A stretch of DNA of 38,905 nucleotides. Origin: Anaerofustis stercorihominis. GTDB taxonomy: Bacteria > Bacillota > Clostridia > Eubacteriales > Anaerofustaceae. Below, piece by piece: positions 1,892 through 36,621 of the stretch. The DNA is taken from NCBI RefSeq assembly GCF_005844425.1, contig NZ_SPHL01000018.1:1-38905 (forward strand). Direction: 5' to 3'. How positions within the stretch are numbered: position 1 is the stretch's first letter; each line of letters starts with the position of its first letter. A program made the position numbers and the translations under genes. The notes below the pieces were generated by a model. It was not told where the DNA came from. It did not search any database and saw only the letters and a program-made list of their open reading frames with translations.

Positions 1892-2047
1892 ATTTTCTTA
1901 TTACAATAATGGAATTTTTTGTGATAAAGATAATATAAAACATTCTATTTTTAATTTTATTATATTCTTTTATAACAAATTCATATAATTTCATTATGAC
2001 AAAATCATTTATCCAAAGAATGTAAAATGTTTTTCGAGGTGGGATAT

Positions 2048-2527
2048 ATGAGTTTTAAAAAGAAACATTTTTTTGTAATTTTTACTTATGTACTTGCATA
2101 TTTATTTTTTAGGAGAGTAAAGAATCCTTCTTTGAATTACATATGTATTCTTTATTATAAAGATAGATTTATTTCATTTAAAGGTTTTTTAGATACGGGA
2201 AATCTCGTTAAGAATTCAAAGGGAAAAGATGTAATAATAATAGACAAAGACATTATTAAAAATCTTTTAAATTTGAATTTATCTTTTAAAACAATGAATT
2301 ACAACGATTTTTTTAATACATATAACAAACTTCCTTTCGATTTAAAACAAAGACTTTCTTATACATTTTTAAATTATCAAAGAGAAAAAATTATTTTACC
2401 TATCTTAAATTTAGACAAAATCATTATAGAAAAAAAGGATTTTAAAAAGACAATTTATAATCCATGTGTTGGAGTATTAGATATTAATGAGTCGTTGGCT
2501 CTTCTTCCGTTATCAATATTAAAATAA
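2048..2527 (+). CDS. spoIIGA: Sigma-E processing aspartic protease SpoIIGA, minimal form lacking most membrane helices
   Basis: In Bacillus, SpoIIGA is a protein of about 300 residues with five membrane helices and a C-terminal aspartic protease domain, which cleaves pro-sigma E in the mother cell on a SpoIIR signal. Here only 159 residues are coded. One hydrophobic helix (about 7-22) is followed at once by the protease domain, with the catalytic D49-T50-G51 in GFLDTGN and a C-terminal PCVGVLDINESLALLPLSIL block matching the family's end. The start at 2048 has GAGGTGGG 5 bp upstream; an in-frame ATG at 2027 has none. Only about 200 bp of AT-rich non-coding DNA lies upstream, so the missing helices are not encoded nearby. 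sigE follows after 12 bp, which supports the identity. Whether this short form is functional is inference. Confidence 0.85.
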   Translation: MSFKKKHFFVIFTYVLAYLFFRRVKNPSLNYICILYYKDRFISFKGFLDTGNLVKNSKGKDVIIIDKDIIKNLLNLNLSFKTMNYNDFFNTYNKLPFDLKQRLSYTFLNYQREKIILPILNLDKIIIEKKDFKKTIYNPCVGVLDINESLALLPLSILK

Positions 2528-2539
2528 ACAGGAGGCTTT

Positions 2540-3235
2540 ATGTTTAAATTATTTACTTTGTTTAAAAAAAACAAAAAGAATAAATTATTTTATATTTCGG
2601 GTTCTTATATGTTACCTCCTCCTTTAACAAAGGAAGAAGAAGCAAGAATTTTGAATGAACTTCAAAAGGGTGAAAATAATGCTGCAAAAACAATTTTGAT
2701 AGAGAGAAATTTAAGGTTAGTAGTATATATAGCAAAAAAATTCGATACATCTTCAACAGGGGTGGAAGATTTAATTTCAATCGGAACAATAGGACTTATA
2801 AAAGCAGTTAAAACATTTAAAGTAGAAAAGAACATAAAACTTGCAACTTACGCATCAAAATGTATAGAAAACGAAATATTAATGCATCTTAGAAAAGTAA
2901 ACAGAATAAAAGGCGAAATATCTCTTGATGAACCTTTAAACGTAGATTATGACGGAAACGAGCTTTTACTTTCAGATATACTGGGAACAGCAACAGACCC
3001 TGTAAAAGATAAAATAGACAGAGATGTTAACAAGGAAATTATGCTTGAAGCAGTTAATAATTTAAAAGAAAGTGAAAAAGAAATCATAAATTATCGCTTT
3101 GGCTTAAACGGAAAAGAGAAGAAAACTCAAAAAGAACTTGCAAATATGCTAAATATTTCTCAGTCTTATATTTCAAGACTGGAAAAAAGAATAATATCTA
3201 ATTTAAAAAAGGAAGTGAAAAAGATGTGTACATAA
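2540..3235 (+). CDS. sigE: RNA polymerase sporulation sigma factor sigma E (pro-form)
   Basis: Mother-cell sigma factor made as an inactive precursor. The 231-residue product shows region 2 ([44 protein letters not shown]) and region 4 ([29 protein letters not shown]), near-identical in pattern to Bacillus sigma E. The N-terminal pro-sequence is present but short. The conserved processing region FYISG sits at residues 17-21, whereas the matching YYIGG of Bacillus is at about 27-31. GGAGG precedes the ATG, and spoIIGA lies immediately upstream. The usual downstream partner sigG is absent; a terminator overlaps the stop codon instead. Confidence 0.97.
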
Positions 3236-25100: not shown

Positions 25101-25457
25101 TTATTTTTTTGTTTTTGGAGAAAAAATAAACGCAAAAAAATATCCAAAAATTATTGCTGCGGTAATTCCTCCTGCCGTAGCCGTAAGAGGACCTGTTAAT
25201 ATTCCAATAATTCCGTCTTGTTTTACCTGAAGAATGGTTCCTTTTACCAGAGAATAACCAAAACCTGTTAAAGGAACTGTCGCTCCTGCCTTTCCAAATT
25301 GTACTATGGGTTCATATAATCCAATAGCCGTTAAAATAACCCCCATAACTATATATATTACAAGGATCTGTCCGGAAACAAGCTTTGTATTATCCATTAT
25401 AATTTGTGCTATAAGACAAAGTATCCCACCTGTTATAAATACATTTAAATATTCCAT
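25101..25457 (-). CDS. spoVAE: Stage V sporulation protein SpoVAE (SpoVAEb type)
   Basis: About 118 residues, hydrophobic, with about four helices, including FITGGILCLIAQIIMDNTKL, PLTGFGYSLVKGTI and GILTGPLTATAGGITAAIIFGY. SpoVA proteins form the dipicolinic acid channel of the spore inner membrane. The fold is paralogous to SpoVAC, with the shared PLTGFG and LTGP-like blocks. The start at 25457 has AAAGGAG 5 bp upstream; an upstream in-frame start would run into spoVAD. It is the last of the spoVAC-D-E set. Confidence 0.93.
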   Translation of the reverse strand: MEYLNVFITGGILCLIAQIIMDNTKLVSGQILVIYIVMGVILTAIGLYEPIVQFGKAGATVPLTGFGYSLVKGTILQVKQDGIIGILTGPLTATAGGITAAIIFGYFFAFIFSPKTKK

Positions 25458-25467
25458 AAAAACTCCT

Positions 25468-26484
25468 TTAATATTTATTTTCAATAGATACTGCATGTGC
25501 AATGCAAGGAATATTTTCCTTTTGTCCCGTAGAGACAGGACTTAAAAGAGCACCTGTTGCCACAAGCAAAATATTGTTTAACTCTTTTTTTAAAAGTTTA
25601 TCGTATAGAAAAGAACAAAATACGCTTGCACTGCATCCTGCACCGCTTCCTCCGCTTACAACATCTTGATTCTTTGTGTCGTATATAAGCATTCCGCAGT
25701 CTTTGTATATATTTTCTATATTTACTCCTTTTTTTCTTAAAAAGTCCTTGGCGATATTGTATCCCACAATACCCAAATCACCTGTAATTATTAAGTCGTA
25801 ATCTTGTGGTGATTTGTCTATATCTTCTAAATGAGTAATAATTGTATCACAAGCGGCAATAGCCATTGCGCTTCCCATATCATTTGGATCATTTTGTTCA
25901 AAATCCATAACTTTTCCTATTGTCATATGTGTTATTATTGGTTTATTTGTTACATTTTTATTTAACAGTACACAGCCGCTCCCCGTAACAGTTCTTTGAG
26001 CAGTGGGCGGAGACTGTGTTCCAAGTTCCAAAGGGTATCTATACTGTCTCTCTGCCGTTGAAAAATGGCTTGTAGCACTTATTATAGCAGTATCTATAAA
26101 GTCGCCGTCTAAAAGCGTTGAAGCTGTCTGAAGAGCCTCTACAAAAGTAGAACATGCGTTATAAATACCCCAGTAAGGAATTTTTAAATCTCTTGCAGTA
26201 AGATTTGTAGTTATAATTTGATTTAATAAATCCCCGCCTATATAGATATCTATATCACTTTGTTTTAAATTGTTCTTTTCCATCAGTGCAAGAATATTTT
26301 TTAGGCACATCTGATGTTCTGCTTTTTCATAAGAATTCTGCCCGAGTAAATCATCCTTAATAATTTCATTAAAATAACTTCTTAAGGGACCTTCTCCTTC
26401 CATTGGTCCAACTATGGCTCTGGTATCTGAAATTGATATTAAATTATCAAATTTATAAGTTTGCTTTCCAAGTTTTTTACTCAT
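25468..26484 (-). CDS. spoVAD: Stage V sporulation protein SpoVAD
   Basis: 338-residue thiolase-like soluble protein that binds dipicolinic acid and brings it to the SpoVA channel. Typical blocks are EGEGPLRSYFNEIIKDDLLGQNS, DIYIGGDLLNQI, YWGIYNACSTFVEALQTAS, SHFSTAERQYRYP and the VVSGGSGAGCSASVF motif. The length equals the Bacillus protein. It lies between spoVAC and spoVAE with 3- and 10-bp gaps. Confidence 0.96.
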   Translation of the reverse strand: MSKKLGKQTYKFDNLISISDTRAIVGPMEGEGPLRSYFNEIIKDDLLGQNSYEKAEHQMCLKNILALMEKNNLKQSDIDIYIGGDLLNQIITTNLTARDLKIPYWGIYNACSTFVEALQTASTLLDGDFIDTAIISATSHFSTAERQYRYPLELGTQSPPTAQRTVTGSGCVLLNKNVTNKPIITHMTIGKVMDFEQNDPNDMGSAMAIAACDTIITHLEDIDKSPQDYDLIITGDLGIVGYNIAKDFLRKKGVNIENIYKDCGMLIYDTKNQDVVSGGSGAGCSASVFCSFLYDKLLKKELNNILLVATGALLSPVSTGQKENIPCIAHAVSIENKY

Positions 26485-26487
26485 TAT

Positions 26488-26934
26488 CTACCTCGTTAAA
26501 ATAAAATATATAAGCCCTACGATAGAACTTGATGTAATCCCAAATACAATAACAGGACCTGCAATTTTAAACATATTTGCTGCCATTCCAAAAATATATC
26601 CTTCTTTGCTGTATTCCATGGCACAAGATACAACACTATTAGCAAAGCCTGTTATTGGAACTATAGAACCTGCTCCGGCTTTTTTCCCTATATTATCGTA
26701 AACACCTATACCCGTTAAAAAAGAACCGATAAATACAAGTGCAATAGATGTCATATTTGATGCTTCAGTCATAGAAAATCCTTTCATAGAAAAAAAATCA
26801 TTTATTATTTGTCCTATAATACAAATAAATCCTCCTACTAAAAATGACATTATTAAATGACTTTTCTTAGGCTTTGGTTTATTTTCCTTAACTATTTTTT
26901 TATATTGTTTTATATTTTTTTCGTTGGTTTCCAT
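26488..26934 (-). CDS. spoVAC: Stage V sporulation protein SpoVAC
   Basis: 148-residue membrane protein with a charged N-terminal tail (KKIVKENKPKPKKSHL) and about four helices (LIMSFLVGGFICIIGQIIND, GSFLTGIGVYDNI, VPITGFANSVVSCAMEY). It is the mechanosensitive-type channel subunit of the SpoVA complex. It follows sigF after 63 bp. I did not find a convincing sigma G (forespore) promoter in that gap, though AT-rich sequence makes such a search weak by eye. Confidence 0.95.
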   Translation of the reverse strand: METNEKNIKQYKKIVKENKPKPKKSHLIMSFLVGGFICIIGQIINDFFSMKGFSMTEASNMTSIALVFIGSFLTGIGVYDNIGKKAGAGSIVPITGFANSVVSCAMEYSKEGYIFGMAANMFKIAGPVIVFGITSSSIVGLIYFILTR

Positions 26935-26997: not shown

Positions 26998-27750
26998 TTA
27001 ATTTTCAAAAGTTTTTTTCATATTTTCTATTATTTTCTTTTCTAGTCTAGATACCTGAACTTGAGAAAGTCCCAAAATTTCTGCAATTTGTGTTTGTGTT
27101 TTATTTTTAAAATACCTTAAAACAATTATCTGCCTGTCTCTTTTATTTAAACTCATTATTGCGTTTTTAAGATCAAGCCTTTCTATAATCATTTCATTAT
27201 TATCTTTTTCATCTTTAATTTTATCCATAAGTAAGACTTTTGTTTTATCTTTGTTTGTCAGTTCTTTATTAAGTGATTCAGGCTGTCTGCAAGCTTCAAA
27301 AGCCATAATTAAATCTTCTTTTGATACACCTATTTTTTCACTTAAATAATTTACATCAGGTTCTTCACCATTTAATTTTATATATTCTTCTCTTATTTTT
27401 CTTGATTTAAGATATATTGTTTTTAAATTTCTTGCTACTTTTATTATTCCTTCATCTCTAAAATACCTTTTATATTCTCCGTTTATTACATACACCGCAT
27501 AAGTAGAAAACTTTGTACAAAAGGAAAAATCAAATTTCTTTATTGCTTTAATTAGCCCTATTGCTCCTATTTGAAACAAGTCTTCATATTGTACGTTATA
27601 AGATAAATATCTTTTTAAGATTGAATTAATAAGCGGAGTGTTTATTATGGTAAGTTCTTCTAAAGCATTTTTATCACCTTGTTGTGCATTTATTATAAGT
27701 TCTTTTACTTCATCTGAAAAATAATCTATTTTTACAGACTCGTTACTCAT
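26998..27750 (-). CDS. sigF: RNA polymerase sporulation sigma factor sigma F
   Basis: 250-residue forespore sigma factor, kept inactive by SpoIIAB. Region 2 is EDLFQIGAIGLIKAIKKFDFSFCTKFSTYAV and region 4 holds RDRQIIVLRYFKNKTQTQIAEILGLSQVQVSRLEKKI. The overlap of its start with the end of spoIIAB (8 bp) identifies it as sigma F rather than sigma G, with which it shares sequence. Confidence 0.96.
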   Translation of the reverse strand: MSNESVKIDYFSDEVKELIINAQQGDKNALEELTIINTPLINSILKRYLSYNVQYEDLFQIGAIGLIKAIKKFDFSFCTKFSTYAVYVINGEYKRYFRDEGIIKVARNLKTIYLKSRKIREEYIKLNGEEPDVNYLSEKIGVSKEDLIMAFEACRQPESLNKELTNKDKTKVLLMDKIKDEKDNNEMIIERLDLKNAIMSLNKRDRQIIVLRYFKNKTQTQIAEILGLSQVQVSRLEKKIIENMKKTFEN

Positions 27751-28204
27751 TTTGATATGTATCCTTTGAAGATATTTTTTTGCTCATAATTAAACTTGTA
27801 CCTTCTCCATATATAGATTCTATTTCAAGTGTATCCATAAAGCTTTCCATAATAGTAAATCCAAGCCCAGACCTTTCAAGCTCCGGTTTTGAAGTGTAAA
27901 GAGGTTCTTTTGCCTTTTTAATATCCTCTATCCCAATTCCTTTATCTATTATTTTTATTGTTACTTCATTTTCTTTTATATATGCTTCCATTGTTATAAG
28001 GTTATCTGATTTATTGTTATAACCATGTATTATAGAATTTGTAACAGCCTCTGAAACACTTGTTTTTATATCGTTTAATTCTTCCATTGATGGATTTAGA
28101 GACAGAATAAAGCTTGAAATAATAAGCCTTGCCAACGATTCGTTTTCTGATATGCTTTTAAACTGAACCTTTAAGTAGTTTTCTATGTTTTTACCTGTTT
28201 TCAT
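27743..28204 (-). CDS. spoIIAB: Anti-sigma F factor / serine kinase SpoIIAB
   Basis: 153-residue GHKL-fold kinase that binds sigma F and phosphorylates SpoIIAA. It shows the N box (SVSEAVTNSIIHGYNN), the G1 box (IIDKGIGIEDIKKA) and the G2 box (GLGFTIMESFMD). The length is near the Bacillus protein (146). It overlaps spoIIAA by 14 bp and sigF by 8 bp, which indicates translational coupling and balanced stoichiometry. Confidence 0.97.
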   Translation of the reverse strand: MKTGKNIENYLKVQFKSISENESLARLIISSFILSLNPSMEELNDIKTSVSEAVTNSIIHGYNNKSDNLITMEAYIKENEVTIKIIDKGIGIEDIKKAKEPLYTSKPELERSGLGFTIMESFMDTLEIESIYGEGTSLIMSKKISSKDTYQNE

Positions 28205-28535
28205 ATTTGTTTATTCCTTCCTGTAAAGTTTTAAATAAATCGAAAATTGAAAGTATTCCCGACATTCTAAGTATTCTTATTATCTGTTCATCTCTTGTAA
28301 CAATACCGCATTCTCCATTTCTCTTCTTTATTTGTCTAAATCTACCCATAAATAACCCTATACCTGCAGAGTCCATAAATGTAACTTTGCTTAAATCAAA
28401 AATAAGGTGGTTTATTTCTTTTTTGCATAATACATAATCAATATTTTCTCTTATATCATTTGTTACATGATCATCTAAATCTCCCAAAATGGAAACAATA
28501 AGGATATTGTTTCTTATTGTTATTTCAAAGTTCAT
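28191..28535 (-). CDS. spoIIAA: Anti-anti-sigma F factor SpoIIAA
   Basis: 114-residue STAS-domain protein that frees sigma F from SpoIIAB when dephosphorylated. The phosphorylation site is S56 in FMDSAGIGLFMGRF (Ser58 of the Bacillus DSSG motif); the following residue is Ala rather than Ser. The start at 28535 has GAGAGGT about 7 bp upstream; an earlier in-frame start (28562) lacks one. It opens the spoIIA operon. I saw no clear sigma H or Spo0A box upstream. Confidence 0.96.
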   Translation of the reverse strand: MNFEITIRNNILIVSILGDLDDHVTNDIRENIDYVLCKKEINHLIFDLSKVTFMDSAGIGLFMGRFRQIKKRNGECGIVTRDEQIIRILRMSGILSIFDLFKTLQEGINKYENR

Positions 28536-28633
28536 ATTTATACCTCTCAATATTATTTTCACCTACAAGATATTATCAAAATCGGAATGTAGAAATTTGG
28601 AAAAAAAGAATAAAAGTACATATTAAAAATATA

Positions 28634-33978: not shown

Positions 33979-36621
33979 TTAATCTTCTTTTTTATTATTT
34001 TCGTCTTTTGAACTGTCAATATCTTCTATATCTTCTCTTTCTTCATCATATTCAATGATATCTTCTTTTATCTTACTATCAAGTTCATTTTCAGATTGTT
34101 CATCTTGAATATCTTCAATATCTTCTTCTACTGAAGAATCTATATTATCAGTACTTGAAACTTCTTCTTCCTCTTCTTCATATGTTTCCCTTGAAGTTTC
34201 AGCATTTGAACTTTCTTTGCTGTCTGAAATATCATTTTCTTGATTATCAATAACTTGCTGTTCTTCTTCAAGCTGTTCTACTTCATTAGTGCTTTCATCA
34301 TCTGATGTATTTTCTACTTCTTCACTTGATATTTCTTCTTCATCTGAAACTATATTTTCATCTGATTCTTCAAGCTCTTCTTCGTAACTTTCATCATCTG
34401 ATGTATTTTCTACTTCTTCACTTGATACTTCTTCATCTGAATCTATATTTTTATCTGATTCTTCAAGCTCTTCTTCGTAACTTTCATCATCTAATGTATT
34501 TTCTACTTCTTCACTTGATACTTCTTCTTTATTAGATGATGTATTTTCATTTTCTTCAACAGCTTCATTTTCAGTGATATCTTCTATACCTTCATCATTT
34601 TCTTTAATGTCATTTTCTTCTGACTCACTTTCATCTGCTGTGTTGGTTTCCTTGTTTTCTTCTACATATTCATCAGTAGTTTCTTCTAAAACATCTTCAT
34701 GAGCATTTTCATTTTCATCTGAAACTTCATTATCTTCAGTATTCAATTTTTGATCATCTTGTTCATCGATTAAAGGATTTTCCTCTTCATAAGAAGTTTC
34801 ATTATTATCCTCATTTTCTAAAGTAGTGTCTTGTTCATCATGTTTTAAATCATCAGAATTTTCTTCTTTTGATATATCTTCTTTTGTTAAATCACTTTCT
34901 TGTGTTTCTTCTAAATCCTCATCAAGGACATCTTTTGTTTCACTATCAACTTCTTGAGATATATCTTCATTTTCATATTGATTTTCTTCTTCGCTGTTTA
35001 AAACATCTTCTTCGTTAATATCTGCAATATCCTCATCTGTTTCTTCTGTAATTTCTTTAATGGTTTCTTCAAACTCATTTTCATTATTTATTTCATCATA
35101 AATAGACTCTATTTCTTCTTTTGATACATCATCTAAAATAACATCATCCAAAGCTTCATCGGTATTGTCAATATTTTCAGTATTATCATTATCAAAAATA
35201 TCTTCAAAAATTTCTTCTTCATTTATAGAAGTATTTTCATCTGTAATATCTTCAATATCTTCTCCAAACTCTTCAACATTAAAAGCTTCATTTTTGCTTG
35301 ACTGTTCAAAAGCTAAGTTTAGATTTTTATCCCTCTTTGCTTCATATAATTCTTCATCAACATCTTCAAATACAAAGCTTTCTTCATCATTGTCATAATC
35401 TTGATCAATTAATGTTGCTTTGCTTACATGATTTTCTGAATTATTTACAAGTTCAAAGCCGATTTCTTCTTTTACGTCGTTTTCATTTTCAAATTCGTAA
35501 AATTCGTTTTCGTCTTTAATTCTCGTCATTGCGGCTACATTACCGATATTGACATTTTCGCTTTCTTCTTTTTTATTTTCTTCACTGGAAGATTTTATCT
35601 TATTATCTAAATCTTCTTCTATTTCTTTATAATCTATAATATTTCCGTTTAATTCACCATTAGAAACAATATCTGCCGTACCATTTTCTTTTGGTACAAT
35701 TTTGATATCCTTTAAGCTTGGATATAATTTCATGATTTGTTCTACTGTAAATACATTCTCTCCGTCAACTTCTTCCTCTTCACCAGCTTCTTCAATAACA
35801 ATTTCGTCATAATATTCATAATCGTCATCATGGCTTATAGGTTCCAACCCAAGAGCCCTTTTCTTTTTAAGTTCCTTTTCTCTTCTTCTACGTTCTTTTC
35901 TTTGTTCTGCTCTTCTTTCAGCTTTTAAATATAATGTCATTAAAAGAACATACAAAATAGCACATAATATTCCAATTAGAATAAACGGTGTATAATCAAA
36001 GTCTTCAAGATTTATTGAATTTATCGCTTTATCAAAAAAGTCATAATCATCTATATTTTCTTCTCTTAAAGAATTATCGGTAAAAACGAAATAATATACA
36101 TCCCCATGATCAATGGTAAACAAAATCATTCCGTGTCCAGTTAAATCTTCTCCATCAGCACCGGTAAGCTTTGAATTATAATATATCTTATATCCGTTTC
36201 TTCTGTCTATTTTGCAATTTTCAACTTTTGTTACGGTTGGTGAAGAGGTGAATTTCTTTGCAATGTTTACTGCATTTTGCTGCATATATGAATCATTGCC
36301 ATATGTGTTTTCTAAAATATCACTTTTTATATTAATCTTATCAGGATCTTTGATGTTATTTTTTTCAAGTACATCTTCACCTATAAAATCTTCAACTTTT
36401 TCGACGTGAATTTCAAGTCTTATTTGATCTTCATAAGGGATTGTTACAACAGACAAATTACTATCCATTACAACGTTTTTTACATCTTTAGGAATTTTTA
36501 AACTATATAGATATGTTGTATTATAATATTCCTCATAGGAATTAAACCCAAATACCGGAGTAGAAAGGTTTGTTATTAATATTAATAATGTCATAAAAAA
36601 AGTTAATATTTTCTTTTTCAT
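33979..36621 (-). CDS. Large single-pass membrane protein with acidic, repetitive intracellular tail
   Basis: 880 residues in four parts. (1) Signal-like segment (about 1-25, KKKILTFFMTLLILITNLSTPVFG). (2) Extracellular domain (about 26-205, with QIRLEIHVEKVEDFIGED, RRNGYKIYYNSKLTG and HGMILFTIDHGDVYYFVFTD), resembling PsbP/DUF1795-like lipoprotein folds. (3) Membrane helix (about 211-232) followed by a very basic stretch (233-256), which by the positive-inside rule points the C-terminus to the cytoplasm. (4) About 620 residues dominated by Glu, Asp, Ser and Asn, predicted disordered, with tandem 31-32-residue repeats near 725-830. I do not recognise the whole protein. It appears to be monocistronic, with its own terminator. 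Function unknown. Confidence 0.85.
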   Translation of the reverse strand: MKKKILTFFMTLLILITNLSTPVFGFNSYEEYYNTTYLYSLKIPKDVKNVVMDSNLSVVTIPYEDQIRLEIHVEKVEDFIGEDVLEKNNIKDPDKINIKSDILENTYGNDSYMQQNAVNIAKKFTSSPTVTKVENCKIDRRNGYKIYYNSKLTGADGEDLTGHGMILFTIDHGDVYYFVFTDNSLREENIDDYDFFDKAINSINLEDFDYTPFILIGILCAILYVLLMTLYLKAERRAEQRKERRRREKELKKKRALGLEPISHDDDYEYYDEIVIEEAGEEEEVDGENVFTVEQIMKLYPSLKDIKIVPKENGTADIVSNGELNGNIIDYKEIEEDLDNKIKSSSEENKKEESENVNIGNVAAMTRIKDENEFYEFENENDVKEEIGFELVNNSENHVSKATLIDQDYDNDEESFVFEDVDEELYEAKRDKNLNLAFEQSSKNEAFNVEEFGEDIEDITDENTSINEEEIFEDIFDNDNTENIDNTDEALDDVILDDVSKEEIESIYDEINNENEFEETIKEITEETDEDIADINEEDVLNSEEENQYENEDISQEVDSETKDVLDEDLEETQESDLTKEDISKEENSDDLKHDEQDTTLENEDNNETSYEEENPLIDEQDDQKLNTEDNEVSDENENAHEDVLEETTDEYVEENKETNTADESESEENDIKENDEGIEDITENEAVEENENTSSNKEEVSSEEVENTLDDESYEEELEESDKNIDSDEEVSSEEVENTSDDESYEEELEESDENIVSDEEEISSEEVENTSDDESTNEVEQLEEEQQVIDNQENDISDSKESSNAETSRETYEEEEEEVSSTDNIDSSVEEDIEDIQDEQSENELDSKIKEDIIEYDEEREDIEDIDSSKDENNKKED
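34292..34545 (-). repeat. Three tandem 93-96 bp coding repeats
   Basis: Near-identical units begin at about 34292, 34388 and 34481 (+ strand CTTTCATCATCTGATG). They encode SSEEVENTSDDESYEEELEE-type units of 32 and 31 residues. DNA identity is high, including synonymous positions, so the duplications look recent. Confidence 0.85.

Follow-up and report, generated by a model that had tools for sequence, protein, structure and literature searches.

A short SpoIIGA-type protease encoded beside sigE in Anaerofustis genomes without detectable spoIIR

How is sigma E, the first sporulation factor of the mother cell, activated where the gene before sigE encodes a SpoIIGA-type protease with a single membrane helix, and where no gene for the forespore signal SpoIIR is found? 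The question is raised by a locus in a contig of the gut bacterium Anaerofustis stercorihominis (NZ_SPHL01000018.1; contig C9 of genome G000), the whole analysed stretch of which (38 905 nt) is called the window below. A 2012 survey lists SpoIIGA and SpoIIR among the sporulation genes shared by all the spore-forming bacilli and clostridia that it covered (PMC3533761). The locus was compared in the window's own genome and 60 relatives, and SpoIIGA was found in 18 of these 61 genomes. The features of the locus are:

1996..2028, plus strand: spoIIG-like promoter pattern (ATGACA, 21 nt, TAAAAT) with a Spo0A-box-like TGACAAA, conserved beside the gene
2036..2043, plus strand: likely ribosome-binding site of spoIIGA, GAGGTGGG, read off the sequence
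2048..2527, plus strand: spoIIGA, short SpoIIGA-type protease gene (159 aa), assigned by a Pfam PF03419 match and short orthologues (L014, L015, L017)
2066..2119, plus strand: single hydrophobic segment (about residues 7–24), assigned to membrane helix 5 of the full-length protein by the start of the Pfam alignment, hydropathy and the structure model
2192..2203, plus strand: catalytic-type DTGN motif (residues 49–52 of the translation), present in all four short forms
2540..3235, plus strand: sigE (pro-sigma E, 231 aa), 12 nt after spoIIGA; NF006158 340.5 bits, cut-off 339
2540..2590, plus strand: predicted 17-residue pro-sequence of sigma E, cleavage placed by similarity

The short spoIIGA gene and its product

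A preliminary description of this DNA had read a 159-residue SpoIIGA, consisting of one helix and a DTG protease domain. This was confirmed, directly upstream of sigE, by the coordinates and by a match to Pfam Peptidase_U4 (SpoIIGA, PF03419) of 44.5 bits, which passes the curated cut-off of 28.4; the SpoIIGA equivalog model TIGR02854 (NCBIfam) gave 19 bits, far under its cut-off of 209.55. Residues 10–144 were aligned to positions 127–266 of the 284 positions of the Pfam model, and because the alignment begins at position 127, the product retains no more than the final membrane segment plus the protease domain. In place of the five N-terminal membrane helices one hydrophobic segment was present; both of its ends are basic, so that the charges favour neither orientation. 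The start at ATG 2048 is supported by GAGGTGGG at 2036–2043; an in-frame ATG upstream of it, at 2027, overlaps the likely −10 box.

The product shares with SpoIIGA of Bacillus and most Clostridia (PF03419) its place in the sigE operon, the D-S/T-G-N motif, the retropepsin-like domain and the last membrane helix. Unlike full-length SpoIIGA (ca. 260–295 aa in the family and order members read), it lacks helices 1–4 and the loop before helix 5, scores far under the equivalog cut-off, and is encoded, as judged at the gene level, in a genome without detectable spoIIR. The missing membrane part had been said not to be split off nearby, and this holds for the whole genome: a profile of the SpoIIGA N-domain, built from nine full-length relatives, detected no separate gene in the short-form genomes (no match in G001 and G002; best E 0.25 over 34 positions in G000; E 0.065 over 63 positions in G009). 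The same profile recovered the six full-length genes of the family, all of them in its alignment, at E 3.5e-40 or better.

The structure of the short SpoIIGA was modelled from three orthologous sequences (mean pLDDT 79.5; 77–95 in the protease domain block); a helix was placed at residues 9–23, though residues 1–27 had pLDDT <50. A Foldseek search with the model returned HIV-1 protease at the top (E 0.0047, probability 0.99) and nothing at E≤0.001. When the Foldseek hits were examined again by using VIA-align, Rickettsia APRc gave a modest likeness (Z 8.6, rmsd 2.7 over 93 residues) and HIV-1 protease Z 8.3. As modelled, the domain has a retropepsin-like fold, with solved retropepsins nearest to it. 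The likeness in the modelled protease-domain fold to APRc of Rickettsia conorii, a retropepsin-like protease of bacteria that is anchored in the membrane, has limits: APRc is reported to sit in the outer membrane, its protease domain facing outwards, and has no known sporulation role. In a published account, the isolated APRc domain, as a fusion, self-processes without its membrane helices (PMC4140852).

No useful positions emerged when the protease domains were compared for residues kept in the full-length and missing from the short forms, as few columns reached at least 60 % identity. Of 41 full-length loci, 22 gave a domain for it, each selected via the D-S/T-G-N motif, so that agreement among the 22 domains in this motif is by construction.

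Distribution of the short form, SpoIIR and other sporulation genes

Among 13 genomes of the family, SpoIIGA was full-length in six, short in four and absent from three. The short form occurs in three Anaerofustis genomes (G000, that of the window; G001, A. stercorihominis DSM 28733; G002) and in G009, a metagenome-assembled genome of an uncultured member of the Eubacteriaceae that belongs to another genus. In a tree of SpoIIE from the ten family members with SpoIIGA, these four were set apart on one side of a branch (support 100/99), which fits a single origin of the short form. A frameshift or assembly error, named earlier as what could undo the reading, is contradicted by the short orthologues in all three Anaerofustis genomes and in G009, and is countered also by a ribosome-binding site and a promoter pattern immediately ahead of the short frame. 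With the short form in four genomes and an N-domain gene found nowhere, an artefact of sequencing or annotation, or a gene split in two, is exceedingly improbable.

Selection was assessed between G001 and G002, for which dN/dS was 0.079 for spoIIGA, 0.013 for sigE, 0.046 for birA, 0.031 for spoIIE, 0.039 for spoIVA and 0.027 for sigF; sigG was without amino-acid change. Such figures are typical of working genes, spoIIGA being the loosest of those compared. Against the more distant G000, values were 0.213 for spoIIGA (dS 2.0), 0.118–0.130 for birA, 0.080 for spoIVA, 0.076 for sigF and 0.056 for sigG, with dS of about 1.5–2, near saturation, or dN/dS not computable; since synonymous sites are so close to saturation in these comparisons, the G001–G002 pair was used for the argument. 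The preliminary description had proposed a simplified system rather than a random truncation. The occurrence of the short form in four genomes and the dN/dS of spoIIGA agree with this, and they support a reading of the short SpoIIGA as a conserved, selected and simplified protease.

SpoIIR (Pfam Spore_II_R) was found in 6/6 family genomes with full-length SpoIIGA, in 0/4 with the short form and in 0/3 without SpoIIGA. A profile of the six family SpoIIR proteins, which re-finds its own six source genomes by construction, gave no match at E≤10 in the remaining seven family genomes. Completeness is 100, 92 and 99 % for the three Anaerofustis genomes and 84 % for G009; given the high values for Anaerofustis, and with G002 in five contigs, an assembly gap that hides spoIIR in all three Anaerofustis genomes is unlikely. 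An unrelated or strongly diverged forespore protein may instead have replaced SpoIIR and activate the short SpoIIGA, probably via its cytoplasmic domain. Such a replacement would suit the need to restrict sigma E to the mother cell somehow, and SpoIIR has been proposed to act on the cytoplasmic domain of SpoIIGA in B. subtilis (PMC13174948); nonetheless, the family profile gave no SpoIIR-like match at E≤10 in the four short-form genomes, and the loss of helices 1–4 would need a different reason. We hold replacement to be unlikely.

A wider survey covered 393 genomes of the class, each at least 90 % complete, with a SpoIIGA match in 289 and a SpoIIR match in 271. The SpoIIGA profile spans were read for 261 of the 289 (the other 28 had E≤3.8e-57), and among these 261 no further complete short SpoIIGA was found. 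Besides two Anaerofustis genomes, only G241, G351, G355 and G250 had spans beginning past position 100; the first three were rejected as short forms as they are ended by contig edges, and in G250 the gene is in two pieces. No SpoIIR match was obtained in 24 of the 289 SpoIIGA-positive genomes, namely the two Anaerofustis, 21 with spans from position 1–2, and G388, in which the SpoIIGA match itself was weak and below cut-off. SpoIIR without SpoIIGA occurred in six class genomes. Some of the SpoIIR-less or SpoIIGA-less cases will be gaps or diverged proteins. The 21 genomes with full-length SpoIIGA and no SpoIIR match indicate that a missing SpoIIR does not force the loss of helices 1–4.

Two groups in this survey were observed in which 99–100 % complete genomes have full-length SpoIIGA and no Spore_II_R match, and in which relatives from the same family have one: G228, G288, G359, G411 and G423 in one family, and G181, G277, G361 and G425 in another.

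A genome search for spo0A and sigG had been suggested, and both are present in G000. Spo0A and SpoIVA scored over cut-off in all ten SpoIIGA-positive family genomes, including 4/4 with the short form; SpoIIE was found in the same ten (again 4/4), every score lying below the model cut-off. As described earlier, sigG does not lie next to sigE in the window. It is not absent from the genome, however: a full-length sigG is located at G000:C14:29709-30455 (361 bits; none of the 13 family genomes reaches the cut-off of 457). Full-length sigG was found in G000–G004, which include three of the four short-form genomes, with scores below the model cut-off, and a separate sigG was not seen in G009 (84 % complete). 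Where DNA downstream of sigE was read in genomes with full-length SpoIIGA (G003, G005, G008, G011), sigG was not the next gene either. Further sporulation genes lie in the window itself:

25101..26934, minus strand: spoVAC-spoVAD-spoVAE (SpoVAD NF006160 479.9 bits, cut-off 402; the other two named by neighbourhood)
26998..27750, minus strand: sigF (two best families, both below cut-off: NF004052 266.5 bits, cut-off 311; TIGR02885 259.2 bits, cut-off 321.45)
27743..28562, minus strand: spoIIAB and spoIIAA, upstream of sigF (ORFs 27743–28204 and 28191–28562)

The names spoIIAB and spoIIAA are presumptive, from gene order and sequence features; G000 also encodes what we take, likewise from sequence, to be a SigK-like factor with a pro-like N-terminus.

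The preliminary description had held that the locus would be vestigial if spoIIR and other sporulation genes were absent. The first part was observed, spoIIR not being found, whereas the other sporulation genes that were tested have been retained and show purifying selection. Decay of the pathway, with SpoIIR lost, sigma E no longer activatable and spoIIGA a remnant, would account for the missing SpoIIR in the short-form genomes. It also draws on published reports: the description of A. butyriciformans, which relies on staining, calls it non-spore-forming (PMC12029686); spoIIR inactivation in C. difficile is reported to abolish heat-resistant spores (PMC3789822); and the 2012 survey counts Ruminococcus albus 7, in which spoIIR and further genes are missing, among the non-spore-formers (PMC3533761). 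Decay fits poorly, however, with the dN/dS values (spoIIGA 0.079; sigE, sigF, spoIIE and spoIVA 0.013–0.039, beside 0.046 for birA; sigG unchanged) and with a spoIIGA frame kept open in three species and a second genus. Moreover, the three family genomes without SpoIIGA (79, 96 and 86 % complete) are also without Spo0A over cut-off and without SpoIVA, and this joint absence is the pattern of true sporulation loss in the family. Decay is given a rather small probability.

Another possibility is that the regulators serve a purpose different from the resistant spore, and that the sigma E switch was simplified to match it. Core regulators under selection in a genus with one species reported as non-spore-forming (PMC12029686) would fit such a use. 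Yet genes related to spore structure or dipicolinate are present (SpoIVA, SpoVAD and the neighbouring spoVAC and spoVAE), and in our judgement rare sporulation can escape routine descriptions; we consider another use improbable.

A separate observation concerns sigG in four genomes from three genera of the family, in which it is split after FSTYAVP with the halves on different contigs: G005 (L127/L128), G011 (L129/L130), G006 (L131/L132) and G008 (L133/L134). The DNA after the N-terminal half nearly matches, as an inverted repeat, the DNA before the C-terminal half in G005 (19/20), G011 (17/20) and G008 (16/20), with 0, 0 and 1 of 5000 shuffles, respectively, matching as well; the repeat in G006 is weaker (12/20; 41 of 5000). 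The repeats resemble the ends of a product of site-specific recombination. An excisable or invertible element may interrupt sigG in these genomes, or the protein may be made as two chains. Beside the C-terminal half in G008 (G008:C26:2000-15000, L137) lie two ORFs that we take, from sequence features, to be tyrosine recombinase-like, together with presumable lexA, mutS-mutL-miaA and pheS-pheT; the full-length sigG of G000 is likewise near mutS-mutL-miaA-like genes. No paper on a split sigG was found by title or abstract opening in one full-text literature search.

The sigma E pro-sequence and the promoter region

The sigE gene passed the SigE equivalog NF006158, but its TIGR02835 score (327 bits) was below the cut-off of 348.6. 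The cleavage position is presumed by similarity to the B. subtilis site. In sigma E of the window 24 residues precede LPPPL, compared with 34 before LPxPL in B. subtilis, as the preliminary description had it in calling the pro-sequence about ten residues shorter. Its further proposal, that the short SpoIIGA and the short pro-sequence form a coevolved pair, was not upheld. The counts before LPxPL are 24, 26, 26 and 29 in the short-form genomes and 27 (G005), 27 (G011), 29 (G008) and 35 in the full-length family members read; G005 and G011 combine 27 residues with full-length SpoIIGA and SpoIIR, and full-length G008 and short-form G009 both have 29. As the lengths overlap in this way, pro-sequence length does not track the form of SpoIIGA. 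Eight genomes from other families of the order have 34–42 residues, and in these sequences the shortening is a family trend unconnected to the short SpoIIGA.

Spo0A activates the spoIIG promoter of B. subtilis, in which, much as in the pattern seen here, the spacer is over-long. The pattern ATGACA, 21 nt, TAAAAT or TATTAT precedes all four short spoIIGA genes, and the full-length gene of G003 is preceded by ATGACA, 22 nt, TATATT; the pattern was unmatched before seven full-length genes (G004, G005, G006, G008, G011, G023, G029), i.e. 5 of the 12 scanned genes match. Its first base lies 52 nt before ATG 2048 in G000, 45 nt before a GTG start (54 before ATG) in G001 and G002 and, counted to the first ATG, 31 nt ahead in G009 and 51 nt in G003. 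With one match in the window against 0.41 expected by chance, and at least one match in 31 of 100 shuffles, the pattern is not significant alone; the argument for this putative promoter is its conservation beside spoIIGA, not the in-window statistics. A sigma E-like promoter upstream of spoIIGA was considered and dropped in favour of the spoIIG-like pattern, which is also present before full-length spoIIGA of G003. The data suggest that the promoter was retained while the region encoding helices 1–4 was lost.

The plus-strand order in the window is birA-like, acetyltransferase-like, spoIIGA, sigE and murE-like, the names of the flanking genes being presumptive, from sequence features. The acetyltransferase-like gene (1360–1845) lies between birA and spoIIGA; in G001 and G002 the corresponding interval is about 300 bases with no long ORF. 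Elsewhere in the window (33979–36621, minus strand), an 880-residue protein with a long Asp/Glu/Ser-rich tail is encoded, for which no NCBIfam match was obtained at E≤1.

A possible route to sigma E activation

Retropepsins act as dimers. The explanation towards which we lean, with modest confidence, is that one branch lost both helices 1–4 and SpoIIR and was left with a protease that needs no signal and is timed by transcription. The coding part for helices 1–4 would have been lost from spoIIGA in the common ancestor of Anaerofustis and the related genus, and spoIIR on the same branch. The remaining fifth helix would anchor the retropepsin-like domain, and Spo0A would switch on the spoIIGA-sigE operon. 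The short protease could then dimerise without a forespore signal, the helices that held it off being gone, and cleave the short pro-sequence of sigma E, so that timing would come from transcription instead of SpoIIR. Here we infer protease activity, signal independence, inhibition by helices 1–4, control by Spo0A and confinement to the mother cell. The bolder form of this reading falls a little short of an even chance in our estimate: sigma E would be activated without any forespore signal, helices 1–4 would be a dedicated SpoIIR-responsive brake deleted together with its signal, and the first forespore-to-mother-cell checkpoint would now be purely transcriptional.

In the studies cited, SpoIIR and SpoIIGA suffice in E. 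coli (PMC13174948), and C. difficile cannot activate sigma E without SpoIIR (PMC3789822). The latter organism resembles the present case in that sigma E is partly independent of sigma F, a clostridial variation in forespore control (PMC3789822, PMC3789829), and differs from our reading of Anaerofustis in its strict need for SpoIIR (PMC3789822). The route from SpoIIR to SpoIIGA is disputed, outer loops being set against the cytoplasmic domain, and the 2026 study proposes for B. subtilis that SpoIIR acts on the cytoplasmic domain inside the mother cell and not on the outer loops (PMC13174948). That proposal does not by itself predict the joint loss of helices 1–4 and SpoIIR; as inter-helix loops may also be cytoplasmic, it and a helix brake are not strictly exclusive. 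Since the losses trace to a single evolutionary event, their coincidence could be due to chance. Other points also speak against the favoured reading: the non-spore-forming description of A. butyriciformans (PMC12029686), the 21 class genomes with full-length SpoIIGA and no SpoIIR match, the match of the promoter pattern before 5 of 12 scanned genes, and the absence from the 2012 survey of any cultured spore-former below 2300 kb (PMC3533761), a size that the window's genome (2028 kb) does not reach.

Titles and abstract openings in a literature search included none about a shortened SpoIIGA or Anaerofustis sporulation genes. Supplementary Table S1 of PMC12029686 covers 66 sporulation-linked genes in A. 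butyriciformans and may already tabulate the loss of spoIIR there. A comparison by ethanol culturomics mentions the genus Anaerofustis a single time, which is no demonstration of spores (PMC7089995).

With the signal gene and four of the five helices lost and the protease kept under selection, helices 1–4 (or their loops) are indicated as the SpoIIR-responsive part of SpoIIGA. On this reading, removal of helices 1–4 should make the protease independent of SpoIIR, and the question is raised how sigma E is kept within the mother cell if the forespore sends no signal. The 159-residue protease would be a ready tool, and its lineage a natural test, of forespore-to-mother-cell signalling.
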